From Physcomitrium patens (lineage: Eukaryota; Streptophyta; Bryopsida; Funariales; Funariaceae), in the NCBI RefSeq assembly GCF_000002425.4, contig NC_037253.1:14606343-14670342 (forward strand): a DNA stretch of 64,000 nt, given 5' to 3'. This document shows, one piece after another, positions 822-54,130 of the stretch. Position 1 is the stretch's first letter, and each line of letters starts with the position of its first letter. Both the position numbers and the translations under genes were made by a program. The notes beneath the pieces were generated by a model. The model did no database searches and had not been told where the DNA came from. It worked only from the letters and a program-made list of their open reading frames with translations.

Positions 822-823
822 GA

Positions 824-6046: not shown

Positions 6047-6073
6047 TGAACTCTCCTCGTGGAACTCGTCTCT

Positions 6074-9897: not shown

Positions 9898-10466
9898 TGT
9901 CACGGACATACACATGTAAGCTAGTAATTACATGTATAAATATATAGAATTAAATAGAAATAGATAGAAATAGATAAAAATAAGTTAATTTTATAATATC
10001 TTCTAAAGAAGCTTTTTAAAAGCTTAATAGACACTACTTTGACTTTATAGGTATCTATTATTGACTTTTAGGTTAGAAACTTAGTCAACAAATTAAACAT
10101 GTATCACACATATTGTTAGTTTGAAGACGAAGCTAACTATGTGGTCCACATGTAGAAAAACTTGCCTTATAAGTCAAGGCATGTGTCCTACAAAATCAAC
10201 ACATATTGAAGGTCCTATAGAGCATCGTCATGTAATCTCTAATTAGATAGTATATATAGAAAGAAGAGTGAAGTCTTCTTTACTCTTATCAATTCCTTTC
10301 TTGCTTCTAATCTAGTTTCAAGAGTCTCAAATTTTCTTATCTTTTGGCAATAAGCCATTCTAGTTTCTTCTTAAATATATGTACTTCCTTATTTCTATTT
10401 TGTCACTTTTTCTTTGACATCGATTTCATTAATTTATGCATCATCTTACAGTTCATGTCCTTGATA
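9898..10466 (+). repeat. E3 5' LTR
   Basis: Starts TGTCACGG and ends CCTTGATA (from CCTTGACA). It is recognisable along its whole length against E2 and E6 LTRs but has many C-to-T and G-to-A changes. Confidence 0.88.
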
Positions 10467-10665
10467 GATTGACACTTACAATATCAGAGCTTTATCTTGT
10501 TTTGATTAAGAATAGATTACCTTTTTTTCATGATAAAATATAAACATATTAGAATTTATGGATTACCCTCTTTTAAACTGATATTATTCTTATTATTTTC
10601 TTTGTCCTCAAGTCTTTTCTTTTACTTGTCTTGAGTGGTATTAGATATTATTTTTGAGTATCATT

Positions 10666-14600: not shown

Positions 14601-14780
14601 GAAGAATGTGAAGTGGAAGAAGTCTTAGACTCAAGGCGGCGCTAAAATAATTTGAAATAATTTATTCATTGGTGCGGATACAATATTAGTAAATACAAAT
14701 AAAAGCCAACAAAGAATCTTACAAATGCAACAAAGAAGGTGGAGGCTTTTCAATGACAACATCCATCAATATCATGATGA
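11674..14780 (+). pseudogene. E3 pol (decayed, RNase H deleted)
   Basis: Protease (ALIDSRTL, with the catalytic glycine changed), RT ([12 protein letters not shown] near 12800 in place of CYLDD), RNase H start (MKTNTSNFVLS), integrase (MDFITNLS, near 13734) and chromodomain linker can all be followed, but with frequent stops and a roughly 390-bp internal deletion near 13318. It cannot encode an active protein. Confidence 0.85.
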
Positions 14781-14874
14781 AGATCTTTTCTATAATAGAA
14801 ATAAGATCTAGGTCAGATAATACTCTACTTTCAATCTTTGTTTATAGCTTCTTTGTATTTGTGACACTATAGAG

Positions 14875-15297
14875 ATGGAGAATCAACAACCAGCGGATTT
14901 GACTAAAGAGCCTTTGTTTACTGACTTGTTGGACGAGACATTGTGATTGTCACAACCTTCAAGACAATACAATCGAGATGAAGATCCTCAAAAAAGACAT
15001 GTTTTTCCTCAAATAGATGGCAAGATACAATGTGTTTGGTATCACGATCTTAGAAGAGACTCTTGATGTTTGATAATTTTATTAGAAGTAGGAACAACTT
15101 CTGATGGTATTCCAAATATTTTATTTGAAGGAAGTTATGAAGGTCTCAACAATGATCAAATAATAGGGTGGTCTTTCCACCCTAGTATGGGACACTATCG
15201 ATAGTTGAGAGGCCCTATCAGCTATCTTCAAAGAGAACAAAGATCTGAATATGTGGCGAATTTAATTTATCACATTATAGATTTTGTCAACATATGA
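14875..15297 (+). pseudogene. E3 ORF3 (decayed, length kept)
   Basis: ATG and final TGA are 423 bp apart, exactly as in E2, E5 and E6, and the start is 94 bp after the pol stop. Several internal stops (TGA, TAG) have arisen, but no net insertion or deletion. The EGSYEGLNNDQI block is still readable. Confidence 0.75.
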
Positions 15298-15338
15298 TGA
15301 CCGCTCATTGTAGAATTCGTCCCTAAAAGAGAAGGTAA

Positions 15339-15896
15339 TATCACGAGCATATACATGTAAGCTAGTAATTACTGATATAAATAGATAGAAGTAGATAGAA
15401 GTAGGTAAAAATAAATTAATTCTATAATATCTTCTAAGGAAGCTTCTTAAAAGCTTAATTAATGATATTTTGATTTTATAAGTGTCCATTATTGACTTTT
15501 ATGTTAGAAACTTAGTCAACAAGTTAACCATGTACCACACATATTGTTAGCTTAAAGACCAGGCTAACTATGTGGCTTACACGTAGAAAAACTTGCCTTG
15601 TAGGTCAAGGCATGTGTCCTACAAAGTCAATACATATTGGACGACCTATAGAACATCATCATGTAGCTCCTAATTAGATAATATATATAGAGATAAGAGT
15701 GAAGCCCTCTTCACTCTTGTCAACTCTTTTCTTGCTTCTAGTCTAGTTTCAAGAGTCTTAAGTTTTCTTGTCTTTTAGCAATAAGCCATTCCAATTTCTT
15801 CTTAAATATATGTACTTCTTTATTTCTATTTATCACTTTTTCTTTGACATGAATTTCATTGATTAATGCATCATCATATAGTTCATGTTCCTAACA
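15339..15896 (+). repeat. E3 3' LTR
   Basis: Starts TATCACG (from TGTCACG) and ends CCTAACA. It still carries the exact ACTCTTGTCAA at the presumed start of R. ATAGG follows as target duplication. Confidence 0.87.
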
Positions 15897-16752: not shown

Positions 16753-17298
16753 TGTCACGAACAAACTCATATTTACATATACAAATAGGTAGAAGTAAGT
16801 AAAAGTAGGTAAAAGTAAGTTAATTCTATAGTATTTTATATCCAAGCTTCAAAGAAGCTTCATAGACGCTGCTTTGACTTCATAGGTGTCTTTAATTGAC
16901 TTTTTGGATTAGAAACGTGGTCAACAAGTTGGTCATGTGCCACACATGTTGTTAGCTTGAAGACCAAGCTAACTATGTGGCCCACATGTAGAAAAACTTG
17001 CCTTGTAAGTCAAGGCATGTGTCCTACAAAGTCAACACATATTGGAGGTCCTATAGAACATCGCCACATAGTCCCTAGTTAGATAGTATATATAAAGACA
17101 AGATTGAAGCCTTCTTCACTCTTGTAAATTGCTTTCTTGCTTCCAATCTAGTTTCAAGGGTCTATAGTTTTCTTTTGGCAATAGCCATTTCAGTTTCTCT
17201 TTCAATATACATACTTGTTTATTTATATCTTCTTAATTTTCTTTGAGTGAAGGCTCACTTGTTTGAATTGCTTTTTCATTGAGTTCATGTCCTTGAAA
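16753..17298 (+). repeat. E5 5' LTR
   Basis: Starts TGTCACGA and ends CCTTGAAA (CA changed to AA). Its R start is altered (ACTCTTGTAAA), while the 3' LTR copy still reads ACTCTTGTCAA. Confidence 0.92.
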
Positions 17299-17300
17299 AA

Positions 17301-17311
17301 TTGACAAGAGT
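17301..17311 (+). other. E5 putative self-complementary primer binding site
   Basis: TTGACAAGAGT lies two bases after the LTR and is the perfect reverse complement of ACTCTTGTCAA in the E5 3' LTR, the E2 LTRs and the E6 LTRs. It supports the self-priming reading described for E6. Confidence 0.65.
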
Positions 17312-17511
17312 ACACCTAGAAAATCAGAGTTTTGTCTAAACTTGATTAAGAGCAGATTATCCCTTTTTTTTGATAAGATATAAGCATATTAGAAGATGTG
17401 AATTACCTTCTTTTAAACTGATATGGTCCTTAGTATTTTTTTTTGTTCTCAAGTCCTCTCTTCTATTTGTCTTGAGCGTTATTAATCATCTTCTCTTTTC
17501 TAAGTATTATC

Positions 17512-18519
17512 ATAGCAGAACTTATTGAAATGAAGAGTACAATGGCACAAATACAAGAGCAATTGAGGGAGTTAATGCTTGCAATGCATCAACTCAATTT
17601 ACCACCACAAGGAATAACAAGATTGGTAAGAAGTGAAGATATAAAAAGGATTGGAGCTGCTTCAACATCTACACCAAATCATGTCATTTTTCCTATGGTG
17701 GAACGCCCTTTAAATGTTAGAGAACCAAGAATTATCCTACCAAAGAAGTTTGATGGCACCAGATCCAAATTTTGAGGATTTATCAATCAAGTGCAACTTG
17801 TGATTGAACTTCAATCCCAAAGCTATTCAATTCTAGGATCGCAAGTTAGATTCATTTGTATGCTTCTTTCAGGTTCAACACTATCATGGTTTTCATCTTT
17901 TCTTGAACGACGAGATTCAATATTAGATAATTTAGAAGCTTTTCTGATGGAGTTTTGATCCATGTATGGAGAACATGATGCAATTCGTGTTGCAACCAAT
18001 AAGATCTATATTTTATAACAAGGCAATTGATCACTAATGTTGTATGCTTTATAATTTTGACAACTTGCAACTGATATCAAGTGTGATGATGCTGCACTTA
18101 TTAGCCAATTTCTCTACGGATTAGAATATGAGGTAAAAAAATTAATGCTCAACTTACCTGATCCTCAAACATTGAGTCAAGCAATTGACTTTGCTATGAA
18201 GTACGACAATCGTCTTTTTGAATTTTGATCTGAGAATCCTACAAGTGGACCTCAACATTACTATAATTCAATGGCAACACCAACACCTCTTCAACACATA
18301 CATTCGAAAGTAGAGGATATGCAAATTGATGTAGTACGTTTCAAACCTCTTAGTGAGCAAGAAAAGACTTGTCGTCATCAAGAAGGATTATGTTTATATT
18401 GTGGAAAATCAAAACACACTGCTTAACATTGTCCAAAGAAATGACGCAACCACAAAATAAGGAGTATGGCTATCAAAGAAGACAATACGTCAGAAAACGA
18501 GTTTGTCTAGCTACAATAG
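17512..18519 (+). pseudogene. E5 gag (broken)
   Basis: The start codon is changed from ATG to ATA. The next residues (AELIEMKSTMAQIQEQLREL) match E6 gag. Stops occur after RSKF (17773) and at many later codons. The zinc knuckle region reads CLYCGKSKHTA followed by a stop. It ends CAA TAG. Confidence 0.88.
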
Positions 18520-21500
18520 GGATCGTGCGACTGGAACCTTGTACAACATCTAGTAAAGGTCTTATTCTCTCTTTAGAGCCCTCTCCTTGTTTTACATTAA
18601 ATATTATTTTAGAACCTAAACATTACAAATCCTCTATCTTGTTAGATTCAGAAGCCTGAGCGTGTTTCTTAGATGAAAAATTTACTAAAAGACATAGCAT
18701 ATCTTTAGTAAAGAAAACTAAAACTATTCATGTAGAAGTCATAGATGGTCGTCCATTATCTTCTGGAGATATTACTCACAAAATCCTTGCTATAGAAGTA
18801 ATAATCAATGATCATAATAGCTTTGTAGTATTTAATATCATTAGATCTCCCTCTAATCCAGTCATTTTAGGTTTATCATGGTTAGAAAAATACAACCCTC
18901 AAATAGATTGGATTTTCCGAACTCTTACTTTCTCTAAAAGTATAACTAACACTGTAGTTAATCAAGTAGAGAGTCATAAGTCCAGTTCAATTAAATCCGT
19001 GTTTATAGGTAAAAAAGCTTTCTTACATGCTGCTATGAAAGAATCACCATATATTATTTGTGCCACACCCGTTTCTGATGGTGCAAAGACTTCATATGGC
19101 ATTCCAAGCCAATATCAAGAATTTCAAGATGTATTTGAAAAAAAGAATGTGGATACACTCCCGAAACATCATCCCTATGATTGTTCAATTCACCTTCAAG
19201 AAAGAGCACAACCGCCATTTGGACCAATCGACAGTTTATCACAAAATGAGTTGACTAAATTCAAGGAGTATATTGAAGAAAATCTAGCCAAGAATTTCAT
19301 ACGCCATTCTAAATCTCCTACAAGAGCTCCAATTTTATTTGTGAAGAAAAAAGATGGATCATTGCGGATGTGTGTTGATTATCGAGGACTCAACAAGATT
19401 ACCATCAAAAATAGGTATCCACTACCTTTAATATCTGAACTTCTTGATCAGCTGAATGAAGCTAAGATCTATACAAAAATAGCTCTCTAGCGAACATGCA
19501 ATCTAGTACGCATCAAAGAAGGAGATGAATAGAAGACTGCATTTCGAACTACATATGGATATTTTGAATACAATGTCATACCTTTTGGACTTACAAATGC
19601 ACCAACAGCTTTTTAACATCTAATGAATGATGTTTTTTGAGAGTTTTTAGACGATTTTGTGGTCTGTTATCTAGACAACATCTTAATCTATTCTAAGAAT
19701 CCACAAGAACATGAACTTCATGTTCATCATGTGTTACAAAAATTAAGAGATGCAGGACTCTATGCCAAGATAGAAAAGTGTGTATTCCACACTATTCAAG
19801 TCGTTTTCTTAAGTTACATCATTTCAAATGATGGACTTATGATGGATCTTAAGAAAATTCAAACTATTATAGATTGGAAGATCCCAAAAATGATAAGAGA
19901 TGTCCAATGCTTTTTGGATTTTGCTAACTACTACCGGGTCTTCATCAAAGACTTCTTTTGAGTTGCAGCTCTACTTATATGTTTGACTTGTAAAGACAAA
20001 ACTCCAATGGAATCAAGAATCAGAAGTTGCTTTTGAATCTTTGAAGACAGCGTTTGTTTCTGTACCAATCTTATATTTTGTTGATTTTTCCAAAGCATTC
20101 TTTATGGAAACAAATGCATCAGACTTTGCTCTAGGTGTGGTTTTGTCATAAATGGGAAAAAATAACAAACTTCATCTAATAGACTTTCATTCAAGAAAAT
20201 TCTTAGCAGCAGAAATCAATTATGAGATCCAGGACAAAGAACTTCTTGCAATTATAGATTCTTTTCAAGAATGGCATCATTATCTAGAAAGCACTTCTAG
20301 TCCAGTCACCGTATATACGAATCACAAGAACCTCAAGTATTTCATGTCAACACGCGTATTAAATCATCGTCAAGCTCGTTAGAGGATGTCTTTATCAAGA
20401 TTCGAGTTTATCATCATCTATCGGCCAAGAAAATAACAAGGTTTGTCTGATGCCTTGTTTAGGCGTTCTTATCTTACATCAAAAGAAGGAGATGCAGCTT
20501 TTGAGTAATAAAGAACGGTTTACTTGAAACTAGAGTAATTTCATCTTTGAGCAATAAAATCAACATTGACTATTGATTTAACTTTTTTCAAGCAAGTCCA
20601 GTTAAGTATGTCTTCAGACCCTCTTGTTTATGATATCAAGAATTATTCTTTTAAATCTCATGATCCCTCTAAATTCGAGTTCAAGAATAACCTACTTTAT
20701 TTCAAAGGATGCTTATATGTTCCAAAAAGAGAAGCACATTTACGTGTTCTTCAAGCTCGTCACGACTTCCCAGCAATAGGGCATTTTGGATACAATAAGA
20801 CTTTGGAGCTGATATTTAGGAATTTTTGGTGGCCTCAAATGTGGAAGGTAGTCAAAGATTTTATACAATCATGTGATGTTTGCTCAAGATCAAAAACTCC
20901 TCGTCATCGACCTTTTGGACTTCTTCAGCCATTACTCATTCCCGAACAACCATGGACTTCTATTTCTATGGACTTCATCACGGATCTTCCAATCTCATAT
21001 TCTTATGACTCTATATTCACGATAATAGATTATTTTACCAAGATGGTACATTTTGTATCATGTACAAAATCTATCACTTGTGAAGAAACAGCTAAGCTCT
21101 TTCTTGACAATATCTATCGCTATCATGGATTATCCAAGGATATTATATCAGATAGGGGAACTCAATTTGTATCAAGATTTTGGCGAACTCTTTTCAAGAT
21201 TCTAAAAGTGGATATAAAACTATTTTCAGCATTCCATCTTCAAACTAATGGACAAACAAAGCATATTAATCAAGTTTTGGAGCAATATTTAAGATGTACC
21301 ATTAACTACTAACAAGATGATTGGACAACACTTTTACCATTGGTAGAGTTTGCTTATAATAACATAGTATATTCTTCTATAAAACAAATACCTTTTTTTA
21401 CTAATTATGGTTATCATCCATGACTTGATACTTTTGATTTTTTAAAAGTTGATAATCCTACTGCAAAAGATTTAGCGATTCATTTGTCAGAGCTATATGG

Positions 21501-22014
21501 ATCGATGAAGGCGCAATTAAAAGAGGCTCAAGAACAACAAAAGGTCAATGCGAATGTCTATCGAAAGAAACAGCCACCATTCCACTTAGGTAATAAGGTA
21601 TAGATACTTTGTCACAATATCAAGACCACTCGTCCTTATGACAAGTTGGACTATCAAAGGCTTGGACCATTTTTGATTTCTGTACAAATCAATCCAGTTG
21701 CATATCGTTTACATCTATTGGAGTCAATGAAAATCCATTCAGTATTCCACGTGTCTCTTCTTGAACCATACAAGACAGTGGACATACCAAGAAGACGATA
21801 AGTTCCACCTCCTCCTATAGAAGTGGACAATAATGAAGAGTTTGAAGTAGAAGAAATCTTAGATTCAAGGCGATGCCATAATAAATTAGAATATCTTGTC
21901 CATTAGTATGGATATGATATTAGTGAATGCACATGGGAGCCAGTAAAGAATCTTACAAATGCAGCAAAGGTAGTGGAAGCTTTTCATCAACGAGATCTAT
22001 CAAAATCAAGATGA
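18520..22014 (+). pseudogene. E5 pol (broken)
   Basis: Protease (LLDSEA, glycine lost), RT (18999-19490 open, then stops; CYLDN in place of CYLDD at about 19665), RNase H near 20110-20400, integrase open from 20566 to 21312 with CDVCSRSK, MDFITDLP and ISDRGTQF, and chromodomain (VEEILDSRR) near 21850. All domains of a gypsy polyprotein are present in order, but stops and a lost RT catalytic aspartate make it dead. Confidence 0.9.
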
Positions 22015-22108
22015 AAACCTTCTTTATACAAGAAACAACATCTAGGCAAGATAAAATTCTACTTTCAATCCTTATTTGTAGCTTCTTTGTAGTTGTGACA
22101 CTCAGGAG

Positions 22109-22531
22109 ATGTAGAACTACTAACCACCAGATTCGACTCAAGAGCCTTCATTTGCTGACCTACCGGATGAGACATTATAATTGTCACAACCTTCAAGACG
22201 ATGCAATCGAGATGAAGATCTTCAAGAACGATATGTTCTTCCTCGAACAGATGGCGACATACAACGTATTTGGTATCATGACTTAGGAATGGACTCTCGA
22301 TGTTTGATGATTTTATTAGAGGTAGGAACAACTCCTGATGGTGTTCCAAATGTTTTATTCAAAGGAAGTTATGAAGGCCTCAACAATGATCAAATAACTA
22401 GGTGGTCTTCTCGCCCTAGTATGGGACACTACTGATGGTTGAGAGGCCCTATCAATCATCTTCGAAGAGAACAAAGATCAGAGTATGTGGCAAATATAAT
22501 TCGTCGCATCATAGATTTTTTCAACATATGA
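22109..22531 (+). pseudogene. E5 ORF3 (stop at codon 2, otherwise readable)
   Basis: 423 bp and 94 bp after the pol stop, as in the other copies. Codon 2 is TAG instead of GAG and a few later stops occur. The blocks EGLNNDQIT and LRREQRSEY are kept. Confidence 0.75.
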
Positions 22532-22573
22532 TGACTGCTCCTCGTAGAACTCGTCCCTAGAAGGAGGGGAGAA

Positions 22574-23119
22574 TGTCTTGGACATACTCATGTTTACATA
22601 TACAAATAGATAGAAGTAAGTAAAAGTAGATAAAAGTAAGTTAATTCTATAGTATTTTATATGCAAGCTTCAAAGCAGCTTCATAGACGCTGCTTTGACT
22701 TCATAGGTGTCTTTAACTGACTTTTTGGATTAGAAACGTGGTCAACAAGTTGGTCATGTGCCACACATGTTGTTAGCTTGAAGACCAAGCTAACTATGTG
22801 GCCCATACGTAGAAAAACTTGCCTTGTAAGTCAAGGCATGTGTCCTACAAAGTCAACACATATTGGAGGTCCTATAGAACGTCGCCACGTAGCCCCTAGT
22901 TAGATAATATATATAGAGACAAGAGTGAAGGCTTCTTCACTCTTGTCAACTCCTTTCTTACTTCCAATCTAGTTTCAAGGGTCTCTAGTTTTCTTTTGGC
23001 AATAGCCATTTCAGTTTTTCTTTCAATATACATACTTGTTTATTTATATCTTCTTACTTTTCTTTGAGTGAAGGCTTACTTGTCTAAATTGCTTTTTCAT
23101 TGAATTCTTGTCCTTGACA
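22574..23119 (+). repeat. E5 3' LTR
   Basis: 546 bp, beginning TGTCTTGG and ending CCTTGACA. A purine tract (AGAAGGAGGGGAGAA) directly precedes it. Confidence 0.92.
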
Positions 23120-38586: not shown

Positions 38587-38591
38587 TTCGC
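38587..38591. other. Target site duplication of E6, left copy (TTCGC)
   Basis: TTCGC precedes the element and is repeated at 44964-44968 after it. Perfect 5-bp match, which sets both ends of E6. Confidence 0.96.
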
Positions 38592-39143
38592 TGTCAAGGA
38601 CAAAGACTCGATGAGGAAAAATATACACCAAAAGGCTATCTCGATATAATAAGTCAAAATATAAACAAGTAGGTATATTAAAAGGAAACTGGAATGGCTA
38701 TTGCCACAAGACAAGAAACTAAAGACTCTTGAACCTGGACTAGAAGCAAGAAAGGAGTTGACAAGAGTGAAGAAGCCTTCACTCTTGTCTCTATATATAC
38801 TATCTAACTAGGGGCTACGTGGCGACGTTCTATAGGACCTCCAATATGTGTTGACTTTGTAGGACACATGCCTTGACTTACAAGGCAAGTTTTTCTACGT
38901 GTAGGCCACATAGTTAGCTTGATCTTCAAGCTAACAACATGTGTGGCACATGGCCAACTTGTTGACCACGTTTCTAATCCAAAAAGTCAATTAAAGACAC
39001 CTATGAAGTCAAAGCAGCGTCTAGGAAGTTTCTAGGAAGCTTCTATATTAAATATTATACAATTAACTTACTTTTATCTACTTTTACTTACTTCTACCTA
39101 TTTCTATATGTAATTATTAGCTTACATGATTATGGCCATGACA
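38592..39143 (-). repeat. E6 3' LTR
   Basis: 552 bp. It differs from 44412-44963 by one C/T change near 39032 and one A/G change near 39139. Inverted ends TGTCA/TGACA. Confidence 0.97.
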
Positions 39144-39160
39144 TTACCCCCCCTTCTAGA
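39144..39160 (-). other. E6 polypurine tract
   Basis: On the minus strand TCTAGAAGGGGGGGTAA runs directly into the 3' LTR. It is the expected plus-strand primer. The two bases before TG are AA, which pairs with the two-base gap (GA) on the other side and fits an integrase that trims two bases from each end. Confidence 0.8.
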
Positions 39161-39701: not shown

Positions 39702-42700
39702 TCATCTTGGTTTTGATGGATGTCGTTGATGAAAAACTTTGACTTTAGTTGATGCATTTGCTAGATTCCTGGATGGCTCCCATGTGCGTTCACTAATATC
39801 ATATCCGCGCCAATGAACAAGATATTCCAGCTTATTTCGACGCCGCCTTGAGTCTAATATCTCTTCCACCTCAAATTCTTCATTATTATCTACTTCTATA
39901 GGAGGCGGTGGCATTTGTCTTCTTCCTTGTATATCCACTGTCTTATATGGTTCAAGAAGAGATACGTGGAATACAGGATGGATCTTCATTGACTCCGGTA
40001 GATGTAACCGATATGCAACTGGGTTGATCTGTTCAGAAACAGAAAAGGGGCCAAGCCTACGATAGTCCAACTTGTCACAAGGTCGAGTAGTCTTGATATT
40101 GCGACGAAGTAGCCATACCTTATCACCGACGTTGATCTGTGGTTGCTCCTTACGATATAGATCTGCGTTTATCTTTTGTCGTTCTTGAGCTTCCTTCAAT
40201 TGTGTCTTCATTATTGCATGTAACTCTGACAACCGATTTGCCATATCTTCTGCTGCAGGATTATCAACTTTTGAAAAATCAAAAGTATCAAGTCGTGGAT
40301 GATAGCCATAATTGGCAAAGAAAGGTGTTTGTTGCGTGGAAGAATGTACCGTATTATTATAAGCAAACTCTGCCAATGGCAGAAGGGTTGTCCAATCATC
40401 TTATTGGTAGTTGATAGTACACCTTAAATATTGCTCCAAGACTTGGTTTACGCGCTCTGTTTGTCCATCAGTTTGAGGATGAAAAGCCGAAGATAGTTTT
40501 ATGTCCACTTTTAAAATCTTGAAAAGGGTCCTCTAAAATCTTGACACAAATTGAGTTCCCCTATCCGATATGATATCTTTAGGTAATCCATGATAGCGAT
40601 AGATATTATCAATGAAAAGCTTAGCTGTTTCTTCACCTGTGATAGATTTTGTACATGGCACAAAATGTGCCATCTTGGTGAAACGATCTACTATCACAAA
40701 TATAGAATCATAAGATCTTGAGCTTGGAAGATCTGTGATGAAATCCATAGAAACAGAAGACCATGGTTGTTCTGGTATAGGTAATGGCTGAAGAAGTCCG
40801 TAAGGTCGATGACGAGGAATTTTTGATCTTGAACAAATATCACATGATTGTACAAAGTCTTTGACTGACTTCCACATTTGTGGCCACCAAAAATCTCTTG
40901 ATATGAGTTCCAAAGTCTTATTATATCCAAAGTGCCCTGCTGTTGGAAAGTCATGACGTGCTTGAAGAACACGTAAACGTGCTTCTCCTTCTGGAACATA
41001 TAGGCGTCCTTCAAAATATAATAGATTATTTTTGAACTCAAACTTAGAAGGATCATGAGACTTGGAAGAATTATTCTCGATATCATAAACAAGAGGGTCT
41101 GAGGACATACTGGACTGGATTTGCTTGAGAAAAGTTGAATCAACAGTCAATGTTGATTTCATTGCTCGGAGATGAAATTGCTCCGGTTTCAAGAGGACCG
41201 TTCTTTGTTGCTCAAAAGCTGCATCTCCTTCTTTTGGTGCAAAATAAGAACGTCTAGATAGGGCATCGGATAAACCTTGTTGTTTTCTTGGCCGATAAGT
41301 GATAATGAACTCGAATCTTGACAAAGACATACTCCAACGAGCTTGACGACGATTCAATATGCGTGCTGACATGAAATACTCGAGGTTCTTGTGATCTGTA
41401 TACACAGTGACTGGACTAGAAGCGCCTTCTAGATAATGACGCTATTCTTGAAAGGAATCCACGATCGCAAGAAGTTCTTTATCGTGGATCTCATAATTGA
41501 TCTCGGCTGTTGAGAATTTTCTTGAATGAAAAGCTATCGGATGGAGTTTGTCATCTGTTCCCATTTGTGATAAAACTGCACCCAAGGCAAAATCTGATGC
41601 ATCTGTTTCCATAAAAAATGCCTTGGAAAAGTCAACACGATATAAGACTGGTGCAGAGACAAACGATGTCTTCAAGGCTTCAAATGCTGCTTCCGCTTCT
41701 TAATTCCATTGAAATTTATCTTTACTAGTCAAGCATGTAAGTGGAGCTACAACTCATGAGAAATCTTTGATGAAGATCCGATAGTAATTGGCAAATCCCA
41801 AGAAACATTGAACATCTCTTACTGTCCTTGGAATCTTCCAATCCACAATTGTTTGGACTTTCTTAGAATCCATCATGAGACCATCATTTGAAATGATGTA
41901 TCCTAAAAAGTCAACTTGAGTAGTGTGAAATACACACTTTTCCATCTTGGCGTACAATCCTGCATCTCTAAGTTTTTGTAATACTTGACGAACATGTATT
42001 TCATGTTCTTCGACGTTCTTAGAATAGATCAGGATATCGTCTAGATAGCAGACGACAAAATTGTCTAAGAATTCACGAAATACATCATTCATGAGATGTT
42101 GAAAAGCAGCTGGTGCATTCGTGAGTCCAAAGGGCATGACATTATATTCGAAATGTCCATACCTGGTTCGAAACGCAATCTTCCATTCATCTCCTTCTTT
42201 GATCCGTACTAGATTATATGCTCCTCTTAGATCTATTTTTGTATAGATCTTAGCTTGATTCAACTGGTCAAGGAGTCTTGATATCAAAGGTAATGGATAC
42301 CTGTTCTTGATTGTGATCTTGTTGAGTCCTCGATAATCAACACACATTCGTAAAGATCCATCTTTTTTCTTTACGAATAGAATTGGAGCTCCTGCTGGAG
42401 ATTTTGAATGGCGTATGAAATTCTTCGCTAAATTCTCGTCAATATATGTCTTGAGTTCAGCCATCTCATCTTGCGATAAACTGTAAATTGGTCCAAATGG
42501 TGGCTGAGTTCCTTCCTTGAGGTCGATTGAACAATCATATGGACGATGCTCAGGAAGAATATCTGCATTCTTTTTCTCAAAAACGTCTTGATACTCCTGA
42601 TATTGACTTGGAATGCCACTTGAAGTCTTTACGTTTTCAGAAATAGGTGCAGCATAAATAGCAAAAGTTGATCATTCTTTTGCTGCGTGTATAAATGCTT

Positions 42701-43259
42701 TTGCACCTATCAGTACGGGTTTTACTGTACTAGACTTATAATTTTTTACTTGGTTCGTAGAACTATTAATAACGCTTTTGGAAAAGTCAAGTTTACGCGA
42801 ATTCCAATCTATTCGAGGGTTATATTTTTCTAGCCAGGATAAACCTAAAATAACTAGATTGGACGGGGATTTAATTATGTTAAAAGCTATGTAGCTATCA
42901 TGACCGTCTATTGTTACTTTTATAGGATGAGTTTCATGAGTGACATCTCCAGAAGACAAGGGACGACCATCTATGACTTCTACATGTACTGGTTTAGGTT
43001 TCTGTACATAGGGTATTTTACGACTTTTAACAAATTGTTCATCTAAAAAACATGTTGAGGCTCCCGAATCTAATAAAGCAGAGGCTTTGTAATTCTTAGG
43101 TCCTAAATATAAGTCTATTATAAAAGAAGGAGAGGGTTCTGAGGAGAGGATAGGACCTTCATTAGGAATTGTACAAGGTTCCAGCTGCACGGTCCCTATT
43201 GTAGCTGGACGAATCCGTTTTCCGACATGTTGTCTTCTTTGACTGTCGTACCCCTCATT
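39702..43259 (-). pseudogene. E6 pol: protease, RT, RNase H, integrase, chromodomain (six stops)
   Basis: The frame is open from 43259, overlapping the end of gag by about 60 bases in the -1 frame, and runs without any shift to 39702. Protease ALLDSGAST lies near 43070, [14 protein letters not shown] near 42045, RNase H METDASDFALG near 41610, integrase H-H-C-C with CDICSRSK near 40830, core MDFITDLP and ISDRGTQF, and chromodomain VEEILDSRR to VHWRGY near 39800. In-frame stops are at 42672-42674, 41754-41756, 41700-41702, 41442-41444, 40533-40535 and 40401-40403. Five are single C-to-T or G-to-A changes (CGA, CAA, TGG codons), and the first is an extra TGA codon not seen in E2. The encoded enzyme is therefore truncated before RT. 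Confidence 0.95.
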
Positions 43260-44200
43260 TTATAGTTGCGTCGTTTCTTTGGACAATGTTGAGCAGTGTG
43301 CTTAGGTTCTCCGCAATATAAACATAATCCTTCTTGACGACGACGAATCTTTTCTTGCTCAGTTAGAGGTTTAAAACGTACCGCGTCAATTTGCATGTCT
43401 TCTACTTCCGAATGTACGTTTGGCAAAGATGTTGATGTTGCCATTGAGTAATAACGTTGAGGTTCCCGTGAATGATTCTCAGATCGAAATTCAAAAAGTC
43501 GATTATCACATTTTACCGCAAAATCGATTGCTTGACTCAAAGTTTGAGGATCAGGTAAGTTGAGCATCAATTTCTTTACTTCGTATTGCAATCCATAAAG
43601 AAATTGACTGATGAGTGCAGCATCATCCCACTTGATGTCAATTGCAAGTTGTCGAAATTGTGAAGCATATACTGTTACTGAGCGATTTCCTTGTCGCAGA
43701 ATTCGGATCTTATTTGTTGCAACACGAGTTGCATCGTGTTCACCATACATAGATCGAAACTCCGCCAAAAAAGCTTTCAAATTGTCCAATATTGGATTTC
43801 GTTGTTCAAGAAAAGACGAAAACCACGATAATGCAGAACCAGAAAGTAGAGTGCGAATAAACCTGACTTGTGATCCTGGAGTTGGATAGCTTTGCGGTTG
43901 AAGTTCAATTGCCAATTGTACTTGATTGATGAACCCTCGAAACTTTGATCTCGTACCATCAAATTTCTCAGGTAAGGCAATTCTTGGTTCTCTAGTGCTT
44001 ATAGGGTGTTGTACAATTGGAGAAGGAACGTGATTTGTTGTAGATGTTGAAGCAGCTCCGATCATCTCTATATCTCCACTTTCTGCTATTCTTGTTCTTT
44101 CCTGTGTTGGTGAATTGAGTTGATGCATCGCAAGCATTAACTCCCTCATTTGCTCTTGCATTTGTGCCATTGCACTCTTCATTTCAACAAGCTCTGCCAT
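43196..44200 (-). CDS. E6 gag, capsid/nucleocapsid protein (intact)
   Basis: 334 residues from ATG at 44200. That start is chosen because MAEL aligns with the E2 start; a longer frame reaches 44239. Features in order: a Met/Gln-rich N-terminal helix (MAQMQEQMRELMLAMHQL), the retrotransposon gag core with FDGTRSKFRGF, SYPTPGSQVRFI, ALSWF and EFRSMYGEHDA, and one zinc knuckle CLYCGEPKHTAQHC (C-x2-C-x4-H-x4-C) near 43300 that would bind the element RNA. It ends VQLQ then TAG. Pol continues in the -1 frame. No damage is seen, so E6 could still provide Gag. Confidence 0.93.
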   Translation of the reverse strand: MAELVEMKSAMAQMQEQMRELMLAMHQLNSPTQERTRIAESGDIEMIGAASTSTTNHVPSPIVQHPISTREPRIALPEKFDGTRSKFRGFINQVQLAIELQPQSYPTPGSQVRFIRTLLSGSALSWFSSFLEQRNPILDNLKAFLAEFRSMYGEHDATRVATNKIRILRQGNRSVTVYASQFRQLAIDIKWDDAALISQFLYGLQYEVKKLMLNLPDPQTLSQAIDFAVKCDNRLFEFRSENHSREPQRYYSMATSTSLPNVHSEVEDMQIDAVRFKPLTEQEKIRRRQEGLCLYCGEPKHTAQHCPKKRRNYKMRGTTVKEDNMSENGFVQLQ

Positions 44201-44398
44201 AATGACACTAAGAAGAAAAATTTGTTTGATATTGCTCAAGACAAAAGAAAAGAAAGACTTGATAACAAAGAAGATACTAAGAACAATATCAGTTTAGAAG
44301 TGGGTAATCCGCAAACTTCTAATACGCTTATGTCTTGTCAAGAGGAAGGGGTAATCCACTCTCACTCAAGAAAAACAAAGCTCTGATATTCTAAGTGT

Positions 44399-44409
44399 AC
44401 TCTTGTCAA
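44399..44409 (-). other. E6 putative self-complementary primer binding site
   Basis: On the minus strand TTGACAAGAGT starts two bases (GA) after the 5' LTR end. It is the exact reverse complement of ACTCTTGTCAA at 44578-44588, the predicted first 11 bases of the transcript. In the Tf1 element of fission yeast an 11-base RNA 5' end pairs with such a site and is cut to prime reverse transcription. There is no TGG-type tRNA site here. A short TATCAGAGC (44380-44388), like part of an initiator-tRNA site, lies about 21 bases inside. Confidence 0.7.
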
Positions 44410-44411
44410 TC

Positions 44412-44963
44412 TGTCAAGGACAAAGACTCGATGAGGAAAAATATACACCAAAAGGCTATCTCGATATAATAAGTCAAAATATAAACAAGTAGGTATATTA
44501 AAAGGAAACTGGAATGGCTATTGCCACAAGACAAGAAACTAAAGACTCTTGAACCTGGACTAGAAGCAAGAAAGGAGTTGACAAGAGTGAAGAAGCCTTC
44601 ACTCTTGTCTCTATATATACTATCTAACTAGGGGCTACGTGGCGACGTTCTATAGGACCTCCAATATGTGTTGACTTTGTAGGACACATGCCTTGACTTA
44701 CAAGGCAAGTTTTTCTACGTGTAGGCCACATAGTTAGCTTGATCTTCAAGCTAACAACATGTGTGGCACATGGCCAACTTGTTGACCACGTTTCTAATCC
44801 AAAAAGTCAATTAAAGACACCTATGAAGTCAAAGCAGCGTCTAGGAAGTTTTTAGGAAGCTTCTATATTAAATATTATACAATTAACTTACTTTTATCTA
44901 CTTTTACTTACTTCTACCTATTTCTATATGTAATTATTAGCTTACATGATTATGGCCGTGACA
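44412..44963 (-). repeat. E6 5' LTR
   Basis: 552 bp, ends TGTCAAGG and CGTGACA as read on the plus strand. It contains the TATA box, the start-site dyad and the three U3 dyads (CATGTG-CCA-CACATG; GTTAGCTTGA-AGA-TCAAGCTAAC, a 23-base palindrome; GCCTTG-TAAGT-CAAGGC), all perfect in this copy. Confidence 0.97.
44578..44619 (-). promoter_or_regulatory. E6 LTR core promoter and predicted RNA start
   Basis: TATATATA at 44612-44619 (minus) precedes a CA start dinucleotide whose A is at 44588, 31 nt after the first T of the box. The 11 bases from there, ACTCTTGTCAA, match the putative primer site. The start overlaps the right arm of a 13-bp dyad (GACAAGAGTGAAG and its complement). Confidence 0.65.
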
Positions 44964-44967
44964 TTCG

Positions 44968-44968
<1 letters not shown>

Positions 44969-46908: not shown

Positions 46909-49900
46909 ATGTCTCTCCGACCTAATGCCCGCGTAGAGGTTCGTAAGAAGGGGTACAAGCTGGCAGTCGATGCCGATGAAGCTCGCAGGAAGAGAGAGGA
47001 TAACATGGTGGAGATTCGGAAGAGCAAGCGGGAGGAGAGCCTTTTGAAGAAGCGCAGGGATGGTATGCTTCAGCAGCAGCAGCGCATTTCGTCCGTTACG
47101 AGTTCCATTTCCGACAAGAAGGTGGGTCATTTGATTTGATTTGATTTGATTTTTTTTTTCGGGGGGGGGGTAGTGTTAACCTAAGTTTGAAAATTTCTGT
47201 GGATTTTTAAATGTTTATTTATTCATTTGCATCTGATCGGTATCATTGTATTCGGAGGTGCGACTCGAACTGGATCTGCTGATATGTGTGCCCCCCTCTG
47301 GATCCTTTCGTACTCGTGCCCTTGAATTTGTGCTAGTTGATGTTTATTCCAAAGTGTTCGAGTCATACACTTAATTACCCTCGCCATTGCAGCAACTCGA
47401 GAGTCTTCCAGGGATGGTCGCTGGTTTACATTCTGATGATCCTGCCATTCAATTGGAAGCAACCACACAATTTCGCAAGCTTCTGTCTATTGGTATGACC
47501 AGGTTCTGTAGACTTGATTTTTTGGCTTAACGTTCATTTTTTATTGCATAGGGATATTTCTACTTCGGTGGGCATATTGGTCTTTAACCTATTTCTGTTT
47601 GCAGAGCGTAGCCCCCCTATCGAAGAAGTAATTTCAGCAGGTGTCGTACCTCGTTTCGTTGAATTTCTAGTTCGAAGCGATTTCCCACAGTTACAGGTAC
47701 CTGTCTGTGTTACCCCTGCTGTTGACCTCATTAGAATAGTTTATTATTAAGCCCTGCGACAAGAGGGTGACATGATGATCTCACACATTGAATGGCCTTC
47801 GCAGTTTGAGGCAGCATGGGCGTTGACTAACATTGCATCCGGAACATCTGATCACACTCGTGTTGTGATTGAGCATGGGGCTGTTCCTATCTTTGTTCAG
47901 CTTCTGAGCTCTCCTAGTGACGATGTTCGTGAGCAGGTATGAATTGAATGATTTTGGGATATTACTGCTTAACTGCCAGGTGTTCTGCATCTAATGGATA
48001 GTTTTGCTTCAGATTTCTATCTGGTGTATCACTGCATCCCTCGTTTCTCCATGAATTTATGTCTTCAGCCCACGCCAGCTGTGTTTACTTGAATTTAATA
48101 GGGACTTCTTTGCACTTATAACGCGTATTACACTAAATATCCTCTGCTTTCTTTATCGACTTTATCTATGAGAATTGAATTTTGTGATGGGGTGCATCTG
48201 TATTTGGGCCTTAAAAGTGGCTGTCACACTTAAGCCAGGATATTCTATATTCTTCAGTCTTGTGACTACTTTCATAATCCTTTGCAGGCAGTATGGGCTT
48301 TGGGAAACGTCGCGGGTGATTCGCCTAAATGCCGTGACCTTGTTTTAAGTCACGGGGCCTTGATGCCACTGCTTGCCCAGCTCACCGACAATACGAAACT
48401 CTCTATGCTCAGAAACGCCACGTGGACGCTCTCTAATTTTTGCCGGGGCAAGCCGCAGCCACCATTTGAGCAGGTGTGTATTTTTTGTTTTTGTTTTTTG
48501 TTCTATCTACAATCACTCATTGCAATTACCGAAGGATGAATGACTATCATTTTCTGGAGAATTCCTGTAGAGAATGCAATGCAAACAAATTTTTGCTGTA
48601 GAATTAGAAGGCTGGCGCTGGTATCGCGCTTTAGATCGAAAGTTGTTTCGATTCCAAATCCCAAATTGATTCAATTTTGCGAATCTCTTCTTGCAGTCCA
48701 AACCTGCGCTGCCCGCCTTGGAGCGTCTCATCCATTCCAACGACGAAGAGGTTCTCACGGATGCGTGTTGGGCCCTTTCTTATTTGTCCGATGGCACAAA
48801 CGACAAAATCCAGGCTGTGATTGAAGCTGGTGTCTGTCGTCGACTTGTGGAGCTGTTGCTGTATGGGTCTTATTTTTCCCTTTTGTGTTCTTATCTTCGT
48901 TTTCTTTCTAGCTAGTATTTTATGACACGATTGTTTGAATTAAGCGTGCTCGAGAAGTTACTTCAGAACTGAGTATTGGCTTTGTCGTTCGTAGCAGCCA
49001 TCCATCACCCTCTGTTCTCATTCCTGCACTGCGCACTGTCGGCAATATTGTTACTGGTGACGATCTCCAGACGCAGGTATGCATGCTTTGATTTGACTTC
49101 TACGGGATTATTTCGGTTTTTAGTACGAAGATCATATCCTTTCAGGAGTGGGCTGACAGCACCCTCCCAGTAAGAATGTCGATAATGTACTTATTATGTA
49201 AAGGCATTTATTGCACCTTATCTTGAGGTGCTACTGTCCTCTTTTTGGTAGCAATACGTGTTTTTTAAAATTCAGTAAGGAAATAAGGGGGACGGCCTGA
49301 AATTTGTGTACTTTCCTCTATTGCTGTTTTGTATCAGTTCATCATCAACAATCAGGCCCTCCCGTGTCTTCTCGCTCTTCTCACCAACAACCACAAGAAA
49401 AGCATTAAAAAGGAAGCCTGCTGGACTATCTCCAACATCACTGCTGGAAACAAGGATCAGATTATGGTACGAACTCAAAATCTGTTCTATGATCAAACTT
49501 TGGTTTAGATTTGGTTGGTCCCAATCAATCCTTAACTGAGTGGTAATGTTACTGATGTCGTGGATTATTTTCTGCAGGCTGTAATCGACGCCAACATTAT
49601 TCCACCTCTTGTTTCTCTGCTTGCTACTGCAGAGTTCGATATTAAGAAGGAGGCCGCTTGGGCCATTTCAAACGCTACATCTGGTGGTAGTCCCGAGCAG
49701 ATCAAGTACCTTGTCACCCAAGGTTGCATCAAGCCACTATGTGATTTATTGACCTGCCCAGACCCTAGAATTGTTACAGTTTCTCTTGAAGGCCTGGAAA
49801 ATATTTTGAAGGTTGGAGAGCAGGAGAAGGATCTTGGTAACAGTGGTGGTATCAATCTCTACGCTCGCTACATTGATGAAGCTGAGGGCTTGGAGAAGAT

Positions 49901-50081
49901 CGAGAATTTGCAGACTCACGACAACAACGAAATCTACGAGAAGGCTGTGAAAATTCTGGAGACTTACTGGCTAGAAGAGGACGAAGATCAGAATTTTGCA
50001 CCTGGAACGGAGGGTCAAGGTTTCGCCTTTGGTACTAGCAGTGCCGCAGGAGCTCCGCCCGGTGGCTTTAACTTCGGCTGA
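46909..50081 (+). CDS. IMPA: Importin alpha (nuclear import receptor adaptor), 9 exons
   Basis: Exons 46909-47121, 47393-47492, 47605-47696, 47805-47936, 48288-48473, 48697-48860, 48995-49076, 49338-49466 and 49578-50081 join through GT/AG introns to 533 residues, the normal length of plant importin alphas. Residues 1 to about 85 form the importin-beta-binding domain, rich in Arg/Lys ([18 protein letters not shown]). Armadillo repeats follow, with the W-x3-N signal-binding ladder: W140/N144, W182/N186, W225/N229, W266 with Y270, W352/N356 and W394/N398. The tail ends GGFNFG, as in plant homologues. The protein binds nuclear localisation signals in the cytoplasm and, with importin beta, carries cargo through the pore. 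No damage is seen. A GT-type donor (50084) just after the stop hints at an intron in the 3' untranslated region. Confidence 0.97.
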
Positions 50082-52217
50082 AAGGTATGCTTACTGTACT
50101 GTAGTGATGCACAGCTTATATTCAGCAATGCATAGGATGTGAACCAGGGTTTTGCTTGTTTCGATTACTATATGGGTAATTCAAGTAGTCACCCATCTAG
50201 TGCCCGAGTAGTCATCTGCCCATCCTGATATTCTCCGATCTAGAAATGAGTAAAAGTTATAATACTCTATTGCTGGGGCGCAGGATGAAAATTGGCCTGA
50301 AAAGCTGTCAATCTGAAACAAGGAGAGATTGCTGAGGCAGGCTATTCATCTACTGATACTTCGCAGCTGTGACCTAAAACGTTGGTTACGATAGGAAAGT
50401 GTCTGGTCCTAAAGAGATACGGGCGCCTAAGCGGTGGCTGAGCACAAGGCTTGGTTGTGGGATCTACCATTCTCTAACCGAACTATTCTGCGCTTAGTGC
50501 TGTCAGTTCTGAACTCTACTCGTTCTAACTGTCATCACTTTGTGGGGTCTGGGTTCCATTGTCGGGAACCCGTAATTGTCGCAGCAGATGCTGCAAAGAC
50601 GTCCTCTTCTCACCTTTGTGTATTGCTCATATAGGGGAGAAGTCCTGCTCAGGGTAAGAGACAGCGTCGTCTTACCCAAAGAGCTTTATTCACGTGTCGC
50701 ACATCCATGATGTGTCTGGTCCGCGATTGCTTACATGTGGATGAATTCATCCACTTGATAACTTTGAGTGCAGCGACTTCTGCTGCCAACTCTAGCCCCG
50801 AGTCGGCTTTAAAGCCACAAAGAGGGTCCCACTTTGGGGAGGTGGGCAGGTTGTCCATCTCGATCACCTCGGTCACTAATCTTTGGCCATGCAATTGTGT
50901 GGCTGACTGATATGTCTGTAGCGTCCATGATTGTGGATAATTGCAGACTCTAATTCTAACTGACATCATAAGTGCCACACGGTTAATCGATATCCTTGGC
51001 ATGTTTGACTTCACGCCATACTTGAGCATAAGCTTGGCGTTAAGGGCTCTACTATGATTTGACTAACCTGTATAGCTGACACACAGTACCAATTAACCAG
51101 CTAACAGAGACATATCGTTTAAGTGTCATGCTTCTTCAGCTCTCAAGTTAGTCTGACTGTGTTTAACATGGAATTGCTTCATCTCTAACCGGGGCAACAA
51201 ATGCGACGGAATCCTAGCTAGCTTATTTCGTTGTAGACTATCCCTACCCTGTTATAAATATATGATCACATTTGTTCGAAGTCTGTCACAAAGCCAGAGT
51301 TGGAGTTTTCTATGTAGGCCTCTCTACACTGATATGAGGCTATTCTGTAGTGTTTCGTGAGTTTTAGCTTTACGACGTCTATATATCGTATCCTAGGTTT
51401 CCTGAAGGAGGTGCCAATGACAGTATGGCTTTGCTATACCGTGAATGTGCTGTGCACATCGACTTTGTCAAAGTGAATCCAATAATTTGATGTCGTTACA
51501 TGGGCATCACCACCTCATTCTGATAGGCAACCTTTGTGTTGGGCTTCGTTAGTCGAGTTTGTTCAGGCTAATGTTTGAGTTGTACGAATACGTATTGAGA
51601 AGCGTGAGGAGGTCCTTTCATGTTTTCAAGCTTTTCTAGACCCTGGGCCTTGTAAAAGGTTGCAGTGTGCTATGTCCAGGAGAACCTGTGCTCCCTTCAT
51701 TGTGATTGAATATCCTAAATTAAATACGCAATCTACATACTGGTGTGAGTAATGAAGCTTCAGGTGTACTGGAGTTGGTTCTCTTGTGTTTAAACACCCT
51801 TACGGATTGTCACTTTTTATCATCCATCTATTCGCTACATGCTAGTTATCCTGCTCTATGAATGAGATGTTGGTCCAAATTTTCTGAATGCTGGGTACGA
51901 AACTTTCTGTTAAACCCTAGCTAATAATAATGCCACTGGCCCAAATCAACTTTCCACCTTCAGATATCACTGGAATTTGTCTCTCATTCAGCGAGAGAAG
52001 ATAGATTTGATGTACTCATGGCAAATGATATTAACTTCTTTTAGACCAGAATTTCTGGTTTTGGTGATTTGGTAGATGTAGACTTAGTTAAGATTGTTTA
52101 TCCTTGCGTTGGCTCATTCCTTACCTGTTAGTGATGCTTACAGCGTTCTGTTCTTTCAAACCCATTTCAAAGACGCTTCTGAAGAGGTGCTCAACCGTCG
52201 TGACATTTGATGTAGCT
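50082..52217. other. Intergenic region between importin alpha and the SHIPPO gene
   Basis: Mixed-composition sequence, without repeats resembling the elements around it. The first part is probably the importin alpha 3' untranslated region. Open frames at 50434-50634 and 50649-51029 (minus) have no features I recognise and no support from splice structure. Confidence 0.55.
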
Positions 52218-52568
52218 GTGGCACTTCATCACTCCCTCTTCCATTCCCCAGTTTCTGTGGCACTTCATCACTCCCTCTTCCATTCCCCAGTTTCTGAGGC
52301 ACTTCATCACTCCCTCTTCCATTCCCCAGTTTCTGAGGCACTTCATCACTCCCTCTTCCATTCCCCAGTTTCTGAGGCACTTCATCACTCCCTCTTCCAT
52401 TCCCCAGTTTCTGTGGCACTTCATCACTCCCTCTTCCATTCCCCAGTTTCTGTGGCACTTCATCACTCCCTCTTCCATTCCCCAGTTTCTGTGGCACTTC
52501 ATCACTCCCTCTTCCATTCCCCAGTTTCTGTGGCACTTCATCACTCCCTCTTCCATTCTCCAGTTTCT
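52218..52568. repeat. 39-bp minisatellite, nine copies
   Basis: Nine head-to-tail units of 39 bp, nearly identical; they end at 52568. Two unit types differ at the second base (GTGGC or GAGGC), in the order T-T-A-A-A-T-T-T-T, and the last unit has one further change (CCATTCTCC). Because 39 is divisible by three, the array stays open in several frames on both strands (for instance the 13-residue unit VALHHSLFHSPVS). I regard it as a non-coding variable-number repeat about 250 bp upstream of the SHIPPO gene rather than a gene. Confidence 0.93.
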
Positions 52569-52819
52569 GTGGCGCCTTATCTAATGCTGTTTGGCCATAC
52601 TTCTGGTCAAGTGCACGTTACATCTTTCAACTTAAAGTGATGGTAGCATTGATGACCAGAATCGTACCAGGAGGCTGACATTTACAGAAATGTTGGAATT
52701 CCACCCACCAGACGAACACCCTGACCATGGACTGGCCTGCCACATGAAGCTCACCAAGCGTTGCTGAACATCTGGCCTGGATCCAACGTTCTCTAAAAGC
52801 TGAATAATTACATTTCATC

Positions 52820-54130
52820 ATGTCGATGGGCTTTGATGATCGTGAGGACAATCCAGGACCAGGATCTTATTACTTGAACTACAAACATGTTCTATTGAAT
52901 GCACCTGGATATTCCATGGGGTTGCGCCCTGACTTGTGGTTTGACCATGATAAACCTGGACCAGGAACTTATAACATGCGGAAAGATTTGAACGACAGTC
53001 CGAAGCATACGATGGGGATCCGCTGCTATAAAGTCAGCCCGCTGAATTTGCCTGGTCCAGGGACTTATGATCTCACTCACCACCACAATTGTACAAATAT
53101 TCGAGGTCCATGCCACTCAATGGGTGAGAAGATTATGTACTTCCCCGATGGGGGAGTCCCAGGACCAGGAACATATGACTTGCGGGATGAGATTTCACTC
53201 CAATCTGTTGGAAAATGTATCACTATGGGAAGACGGTTTAGAAACGGAGCACCTTGCACTCTTGGTTCCAAGATTCCATGGTCTGCACCTGTCTCCGCCA
53301 GATACAGCATCTCTGACAAACCAGGTGTTTGCTTGTTCCAGCCCTCTTCACCCGGGCTTGAAACACACAGATCTCGCTCTTCAGAATTTGCTGGCCCCAT
53401 GTATACGATGGGCCAGAGGTTCTATCGCCTTCGGAACAGAGTGGAGAGGAGACACATGTGTTACTCTCCTCCCACCAAGTCCAAGCCCACTAAAAGCGCC
53501 ATCCATGGTAAGCCTGCGTCAATCGTTGAACCTTCAAAGCCCAGTAAGCACACAGAAGTATGATTTCTATTGCGGAGGAGATGAGGAATGTCTAGAACTG
53601 GAAATAGCGTCGTCATGTTCACAATCCTGCTGTAAAGCTTCTGCTAGAAGTCCGTGTTCATGTAGTATGTATGTGATTAGGAAGCAGATCTTTTTTTAAG
53701 CAGATGTGTACTACTTGCTTTGATAGTAAACAGATTTTCAATCTAGTTTGAATCCAGGAAATAATCTCGTTCAACTCATGTCGGAAGGTCACAATGCTGT
53801 GTTGCAGTTCCGCCCAAATCAGGGGCTGATGCCACCACATTCAGCCCCCGTATGCTCAAGAAATTTCTAGAACACTTCCCCCAAGTCGTCAATGTGGAAC
53901 CAACTCCTTCACCTCAAGTTGGAATTCACCGCAAGTACAGCACACATGTACATTCACAACCTTCTATTTCTGTTGCAACCCAAACTCCGTCAGCGCCACA
54001 AAAGGAGGCAATTCCACCTGCTGCTCCTAAGTTGAATGCATGGATGGAGGTCAGCAAAAACTTGCAATTTGTTCGCACGAGGCTTTCTGCAGCAGCTAGA
54101 ATTTCGGATCCTGAATCTCCTCCAGAGTGA
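52820..54130 (+). CDS. SHIPPO/STPG-repeat protein (ODF3/CIMAP-like, cilium or sperm flagellum), 2 exons
   Basis: Exons 52820-53507 and 53808-54130 join in frame to 336 residues. An in-frame TAA at 52805 with no splice site after it supports the ATG at 52820. Four PGPG(T/S)Y motifs at residues 12-17, 46-51, 78-83 and 114-119 alternate with SMG/TMG motifs (3, 32, 64, 100), the signature of SHIPPO repeats; weaker repeats follow up to SMYTMG-like text near residue 195. The C-terminal exon is Pro/Ser-rich with no named domain. Members of this family sit in or on the doublet microtubules of motile axonemes. In a plant that means the sperm flagellum, so expression in male organs is expected. The function here is inferred from the family. 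Confidence 0.85.

Follow-up and report, generated by a model that had tools for sequence, protein, structure and literature searches.

In the window, the 64,000-nucleotide stretch of Physcomitrium patens DNA that was analysed, the LTR-retrotransposon E6 is with high probability a Tf1/Sushi-type chromovirus of the plant Tcn1 clade that would use its own RNA 5' end as the primer for reverse transcription. Judged from its sequence, self-priming by E6 is well supported by what was observed of its anatomy, its self-complementarity, the co-variation of the paired sites, and the grouping of its reverse transcriptase (RT). A Tf1-like mechanism had been put forward in an earlier sequence-only reading of this DNA, and co-varying matched pairs across six elements, together with the RT grouping, support that proposal.

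E6 lies in minus-strand orientation and is one of several window copies of the same LTR-retrotransposon family; its features are given below on that strand. The 5' LTR (TGTC...TTGACA, 44412-44963) was delimited by its match to the 3' LTR (38592-39143) and by a 5-bp target-site duplication, TTCGC (38587-38591, mate at 44964-44968, unstranded). Both LTRs are 552 bp long, with 2 differences between them, and the 3' LTR contains a second TATA box, dyad, and R block. In the 5' LTR, the first T of the TATA box TATATATA (44612-44619, LTR position 345) is located 31 nt before ACTCTTGTCAA (44578-44588), the putative RNA 5' end and self-primer at the start of R, which was identified by its complementarity to the primer-binding site (PBS), its TATA spacing, and the CA at its start. 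In sense order, the distance from ACTCTTGTCAA to the 5' LTR end ...CCTTGACA is 177 nt. The LTR is followed by a two-base gap, GA (44410-44411), the PBS TTGACAAGAGT (44399-44409), and an untranslated leader from PBS to gag (44200-44398) that is 72-82% alike in the four other window copies.

The coding region comprises gag (43196-44200; Retrotrans_gag/Ty3_capsid, Pfam PF03732 and PF19259), a protease ORF fragment of pol (42672-43190; RVP_2), an RT ORF fragment (41754-42464; RVT_1), a fragment with the RNase H end and integrase N-terminus (40533-41405; RT_RNaseH, scoring below the Pfam cut-off, Integrase_H2C2, and rve), and the integrase C-terminus with SH3_Tf2-1 and a chromodomain (39702-40376; PF24626 and PF00385). 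A polypurine tract ending in GGGGGGGTAA before U3 (39144-39157) adjoins the 3' LTR. The splitting of pol among several ORFs counts against the self-priming case. When the chromodomain was aligned with CDYL, its F, W, and Y stood opposite the Y, W, and Y of CDYL, which we take to be the aromatic-cage positions.

The PBS, 2 nt past the 5' LTR, complements ACTCTTGTCAA over exactly 11 nt. Re-measurement of the anatomy thus confirmed the earlier observation that an 11-mer two bases past the LTR is the exact complement of a block 31 nt from the first T of the TATA box, as well as the GA gap between U5 and the site (44410-44411). The reported lack of an adjacent TGG-type tRNA site also held, with no TGG found 0-5 nt after the LTR in E6 or in any of the six elements compared below, and searches of the window with Rfam (gathering scores) and ARAGORN found nothing. 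The window contains eight exact copies of the 11-mer, all of them priming sites or R blocks, and 20 matches were found at up to one mismatch compared to 1.99 expected. In the available text of PMC6317226, an element counts as self-priming if it lacks a tRNA-type PBS and has a self-complementary stretch of 10 nt or longer that begins no more than 5 nt past the 5' LTR; E6 has 11 nt at offset 2 and no TGG.

Chance complementarity in A+T-rich sequence was considered as an explanation, since an 11-nt match to the LTR arises in roughly 1 of 670-1,250 control leaders. Its frequency was 0.0008 in dinucleotide-shuffled leaders (20,000 trials) and 0.0015 (76 of 51,040) for a match anywhere in the LTR from real control starts, taken from two parts of the window in which the family has no copy. 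None of these 51,040 starts gave a best match that both reached 9 nt and began 26-38 nt from the initial T of the TATA box; in 60 starts the best match near the start site was 8 nt. Chance is an extremely improbable account of the pairing and was rejected on these control frequencies and on covariation, as compensatory changes occur at the same place in six elements with five distinct pairs. In predicted minimum-energy folds of the RNA 5' end, the R:PBS helix formed with 11 of 11 pairs in five elements and 11 of 12 in the sixth (L005); mean pair probability was 0.94-0.96 over the six and 0.96 for the E6 PBS.

The proposed course of priming is as follows. Based upon TATA spacing (31-34 nt over the six elements) and the initial CA, we infer that the RNA would start at ACTCTTGTCAA, in E6 about 31 nt past the TATA box. 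The first 11 nt would then loop back to pair with TTGACAAGAGT, two bases past the 5' LTR, and the element's RNase H would cut after nucleotide 11, leaving CAA on one side and C on the other. From the 3' end so released, synthesis would proceed through GA into U5, with the cDNA then moving to the 3' R. Plus-strand synthesis would later copy the primer and restore the PBS, presumably rewriting it from R in each cycle so that the two sites stay matched, and integrase would trim two bases from each end. According to the available text of PMC7175516, Tf1 RNA anneals to the PBS by its first 11 bases, with an RNase H cut between bases 11 and 12; the statement in the earlier reading that Tf1 is primed by an 11-base RNA 5' end agrees with that source.

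Comparison of the window copies yielded mixed results. E6, with its 2 LTR differences, retains 11 of 11 R:PBS pairs. The plus-strand copy at 16753-23119 (LTRs 94% alike) has AA in the gap and an unchanged TTGACAAGAGT (gap and PBS, 17299-17311), and 10 of 11 pairs form between that PBS and the R block in the copy's 5' LTR, the latter with one change; the perfect 11 bases previously credited to this copy therefore apply to its PBS and not to its R block. Likewise 10 of 11 pairs remain in the plus-strand copy at 261-6648 (LTRs 96% alike, target-site duplication CTAAA), where the gap GA is followed by TTGACAAGAAT (822-834). A truncated minus-strand copy at 9.6 kb also has TTGACAAGAAT (9636-9646), the same single G-to-A transition, and has 8 of 11 pairs left with its own R block. 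In the copy at 9898-15896 (LTRs 85% alike) 8 nt of the site are lost. The earlier account of the 11-mer in the other copies can accordingly be restated as one perfect PBS, two with one transition, and one heavily changed. That the PBS is changed in three of the five window copies counts against the self-priming case. LTR likeness and R:PBS pairing across the copies loosely fit a rewriting of the PBS from R.

In addition to the copies within the window, an RT alignment scan of GTDB contigs yielded 13 loci (L001-L013) in bacterial metagenome-assembled genomes (MAGs). These loci, from cyanobacterial and other bins, were judged to be misbinned eukaryotic retrotransposon DNA, and their occurrence in GTDB bacterial MAGs serves as a contamination flag. 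Complementarity of at least 10 nt upstream of gag was sought in 12 loci, L013 being left out because its RT match starts at the contig edge. The contigs of L002, L007, L009, L011, and L013 stop short of the site, and that of L008 falls just short (1770 nt compared to at least 1788). All five contigs of E6's RT group that reach the site contained a matched pair, with R and PBS, respectively, of AGTCTCGACAA and TTGTCGAGACT in L001 (12 nt in all), AAGGCGAACAA and TTGTTCGCCTT in L003 and L004, CTCTTGATCAA and TTGATCAAGAG in L005 (12 nt in all), and AAGGTGAACAA and TTGTTCACCTT in L006. The relatives thus have four distinct pairs, none the same as that of E6, and since R and PBS are identical in L003 and L004, the six elements represent five distinct pairs.

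The setting of the site was constant while its sequence varied. All six elements have an LTR ending in TGACA, a two-base gap of the form G-N, and a C after the proposed cut; in the five relatives the site begins with TTG and is 11-12 nt long. The distance from the first T of the TATA box to the first paired R base was 32-34 nt in the relatives, giving the range for all six stated above, and the site lies 1788-1964 nt upstream of the RT match in the relatives and 1948 nt upstream in E6. All 66 R:PBS cells were paired over the six elements, a completeness partly due to selection, as the relatives were picked for at least 10 nt of complementarity. Eight of the 11 pairs were doubly changed, a value reached by 6 of 500 shuffles, while none of 500 shuffles reached the 18 doubly changed cells or the covariation score (0.873 against 0.232). 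Slid registers of R:PBS were 30-47% paired. Matches between R and PBS of different elements, L003/L004 excepted, were 0-8 nt, with one of 10, compared to 11-12 nt within each element. The compensatory primer and PBS changes for which the sequence-only reading had advised a search are therefore present between families, at those same 8 of 11 pairs.

The search also gave further matches, which weigh against the self-priming case. Besides its matched pair, L006 has two other self-matches that reach the 10-nt limit, neither of them with a TATA box inside 40 nt. Among loci outside E6's RT group, L010 has five matches of 10-12 nt, whose partners likewise have no TATA box inside 40 nt, together with a 9-nt match, and the contig of L012 reaches far enough and contains no self-match of at least 10 nt. 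Scans of viral contigs returned 6 and 27 matched stretches and no confirmed relative.

Two features outside the priming sites were also common to E6 and some of these relatives. The gag and pol frames overlap by 43-64 nt with an identical frame difference in E6 (43196-43259, minus strand), L001 (1430-1472), and L006 (1857-1914), and all three have the 9-mer CGGAAAACG and a gag end of CARTAGG; the overlap may be a programmed frameshift signal. The leaders of E6 (44200-44398, minus strand) and L001 (293-470) each contain two GGATTACCC-like stretches, one of them enclosed by a short stem (TTAGAAG/CTTCTAA in E6, TTAGAGG/CCTCTAA in L001), possibly a packaging signal. A consensus fold of the two leaders was similar, without gain from covariation (the covariation term was unfavourable).

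The U3/R junction of E6 contains a 13-nt perfect dyad, formed by the U3-tail arm GACAAGAGTGAAG (44597-44609, minus strand) and CTTCACTCTTGTC (44580-44592). It had been cautioned that nine bases of the PBS recur in this start-site dyad, and GACAAGAGT of the PBS is indeed found at 44597-44609. The R:PBS complementarity could accordingly be a by-product of the dyad, in which case the site would be a displaced duplicate of the left arm, with a tRNA or tRNA fragment as the actual primer; the strength of the E6 dyad and the GACAAGAGT shared by left arm and PBS both speak for such an origin. In contrast, the PBS runs two bases further, its TT before GACAAGAGT pairing exactly with the AA of R and missing from the left arm, and the PBS of L001 matches R perfectly where the left arm has a G-U pair, so the PBS is not a copy of the U3 arm. 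Furthermore, L005 lacks the full dyad yet has 12-nt R:PBS pairing, and a TGG-type site is absent. On the TT extension, the L001 G-U pair, and L005, copying of the PBS from the dyad was rejected; a by-product origin is very unlikely, and the dyad is a real feature separate from the PBS.

This dyad has counterparts in the relatives. In five of the six elements (E6, L001, L003, L004, and L006) the U3 tail is able to pair with 9 of the first 11 nt of R, and in predicted folds of the U3/R junction, representing the RNA 3'-end state, those R bases were paired with probability near 1, with exceptions at helix ends (R nucleotide 9 in E6; 1 and 10 in L006). Shuffled U3 tails matched each of the five hairpins in 0-1.25% of trials, and L005 has a 7-nt U3/R helix only (4.6% of shuffles). 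Over these five elements (four distinct rows), chosen for having the hairpin, 97.2% of cells were paired; 7 of 9 pairs were doubly changed, reached by 6 of 500 shuffles, and the covariation score was reached by none of 500.

The hairpin could tentatively be interpreted as part of a two-state RNA switch acting on the primer. The full-length RNA would contain two primer copies, the 3' copy locked by the U3 tail and the 5' copy free to pair with the PBS, as the U3 tail is absent from the RNA 5' end. The lock would shield the 3' copy, needed for strand transfer, from the RNase H cut or from the PBS, and reverse transcription would open the hairpin. With the U3 tail pairing with R and R with the PBS, the U3 tail, R start, and PBS would evolve as a matched triple. 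Alternatively, the dyad is possibly a promoter palindrome. No lock on the 3' primer copy was found in a limited survey of the literature on hairpins and inverted repeats or in the available text of PMC10085805, a scope that leaves the original Tf1 papers outside and is no proof of novelty. The hairpin poses a question for all self-priming elements, namely what keeps the 3' primer copy unused and uncut.

Additional duplexes were predicted around the PBS. L003-L006 have a predicted PBS-upstream duplex in which the LTR end pairs with the sequence just past the primer (GTTACGGA-type with TCCGTGAC-type), with P 0.013-0.057 when tested by shuffling of the flanks; a different PBS-upstream duplex is predicted in E6 (P 0.06) and none in L001 (P 0.93). 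A PBS-downstream duplex reached P <0.05 in L004 only of the six elements.

A tRNA primer was also considered. Nine bases of the leader, TATCAGAGC (44380-44388, minus strand), starting 23 nt past the LTR, match the complement of tRNA-iMet and could be the site of tRNA priming or a relic of it; three of the five window copies retain them. Met is moreover the commonest plant primer according to the available text of PMC6317226. The TGG that would accept the tRNA CCA end is missing at TATCAGAGC, so the tRNA 3' end could not be extended, and the LTR boundary and target-site duplication place the start of synthesis upstream. L001, furthermore, has TATTGGAGT at the aligned place. With no TGG and no conservation in L001, the site was rejected; priming by tRNA-iMet is very improbable, and the resemblance is likely a coincidence.

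To place E6 among known retrotransposons, a protein search was performed with the RT-RNase H ORF of a sister copy. The named matches among the best 120 of 8000 candidates were from frog, fish, fungi (one Tf2-9), amoeba, and one seed plant (Cucumis melo pol). In an RT tree of 24 rows, with a midpoint root and without Tf1, L009, and L013, E6 and the sister copy grouped with L001. A group of 18 of the 24 rows (support 96/91) united E6 with fungal, fish, frog, and amoeba rows and L002-L007, while Cucumis, Ty3, L008, and L010-L012 fell outside; little can be read from the branching inside the group. This group was taken as the Tf1/Sushi group, the plant members of which are called Tcn1. The earlier description of E6 as a plant chromovirus needs one correction, in that its RT does not join Cucumis, the sole seed-plant row, and groups with fungal and vertebrate Tf1/Sushi-type rows. 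In seed-plant chromoviruses (Tekay, Reina, CRM, and Galadriel) a tRNA-Met PBS adjoins the LTR, whereas E6 has no TGG site and its RT is apart from their single row.

Two host genes in the window by themselves suggest a land plant with motile sperm, likely a moss. A SHIPPO (sperm-tail) repeat gene (52820-53563) had a best match of 99%, with the nearest named matches in the moss Ceratodon purpureus (43 and 45% identity) and then the club-moss Diphasiastrum (33%). The importin-alpha end at 49560-50081 scored 296-298 bits with importin alpha-1A, presumably of rice, and 322-324 bits with two higher rows, compared to at most 244 bits with human-type importins and 231 with yeast SRP1. Just before the SHIPPO gene, an ORF at 52104-52640 (plus strand) contains in-frame tandem 13-residue repeats (S-V/E-ALHHSLFHSPV).

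Of the known systems, Tf1 of Schizosaccharomyces pombe resembles E6 in an 11-nt RNA 5' end that complements a PBS at the 5' LTR, the lack of a tRNA site, a chromodomain, and an integrase domain of Pfam SH3_Tf2-1. Tf1 is a single ORF, whereas E6 has gag and pol in different frames and a land plant as host. Tf1 is described in the available text of PMC10085805 as requiring a three-duplex 'pretzel' RNA; in E6 and its relatives, predicted folds show such an RNA only in part, with the central duplex (R:PBS) in all six elements, and this incompleteness counts against the self-priming case. Tj1 of S. japonicus (PMC4600332) likewise has a PBS complementary to the RNA 5' end and is proposed to be self-priming; unlike E6, it is a yeast element and has been tested for transposition. 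Cryptococcus Tcn1 has also been proposed as self-priming (PMC7175516, available text).

Among plants, most Tcn1-clade elements, from mosses and club-mosses, were predicted to be self-priming by Neumann et al. 2019 (PMC6317226, available text). In the features compared, the clade shares with E6 a Tf1/Sushi-type RT, an aromatic-cage chromodomain, a non-seed land plant host, the lack of a tRNA site, and predicted self-priming. The same source predicts self-priming for the TAR lineage of Ty1/copia, another superfamily, whereas E6 has a Ty3/gypsy-type RT and a chromodomain. Selaginella SM-Tcn1 resembles E6 in belonging to the Tcn1 clade of chromoviruses, in its non-seed plant host, and in its TG...CA LTRs. 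The available part of Novikova et al. 2010 (PMC2864245) reports no tRNA site for SM-Tcn1 and no sign that it self-primes, whereas both partner sites are clear in E6. The claim of the sequence-only reading that land-plant gypsy elements offer no established case stands in that no experiment was seen in the sources consulted, and fails in that the Tcn1-clade prediction was in print in 2019.

Self-priming in this clade is therefore already predicted in print and is not new in kind. What is added here is compensatory evidence across families, a constant frame around the changing site (TGACA, G-N, TTG...; ...CAA, C), and a co-varying U3/R hairpin. A published motif-based prediction of self-priming in plant Tcn1 elements is now backed by co-variation, and exact primer and PBS sites are offered for a direct test in plants. 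These findings suggest that an alternative to tRNA priming that ranks among the best defined is kept in the Tf1/Sushi-type elements of land plants as it is in those of fungi.
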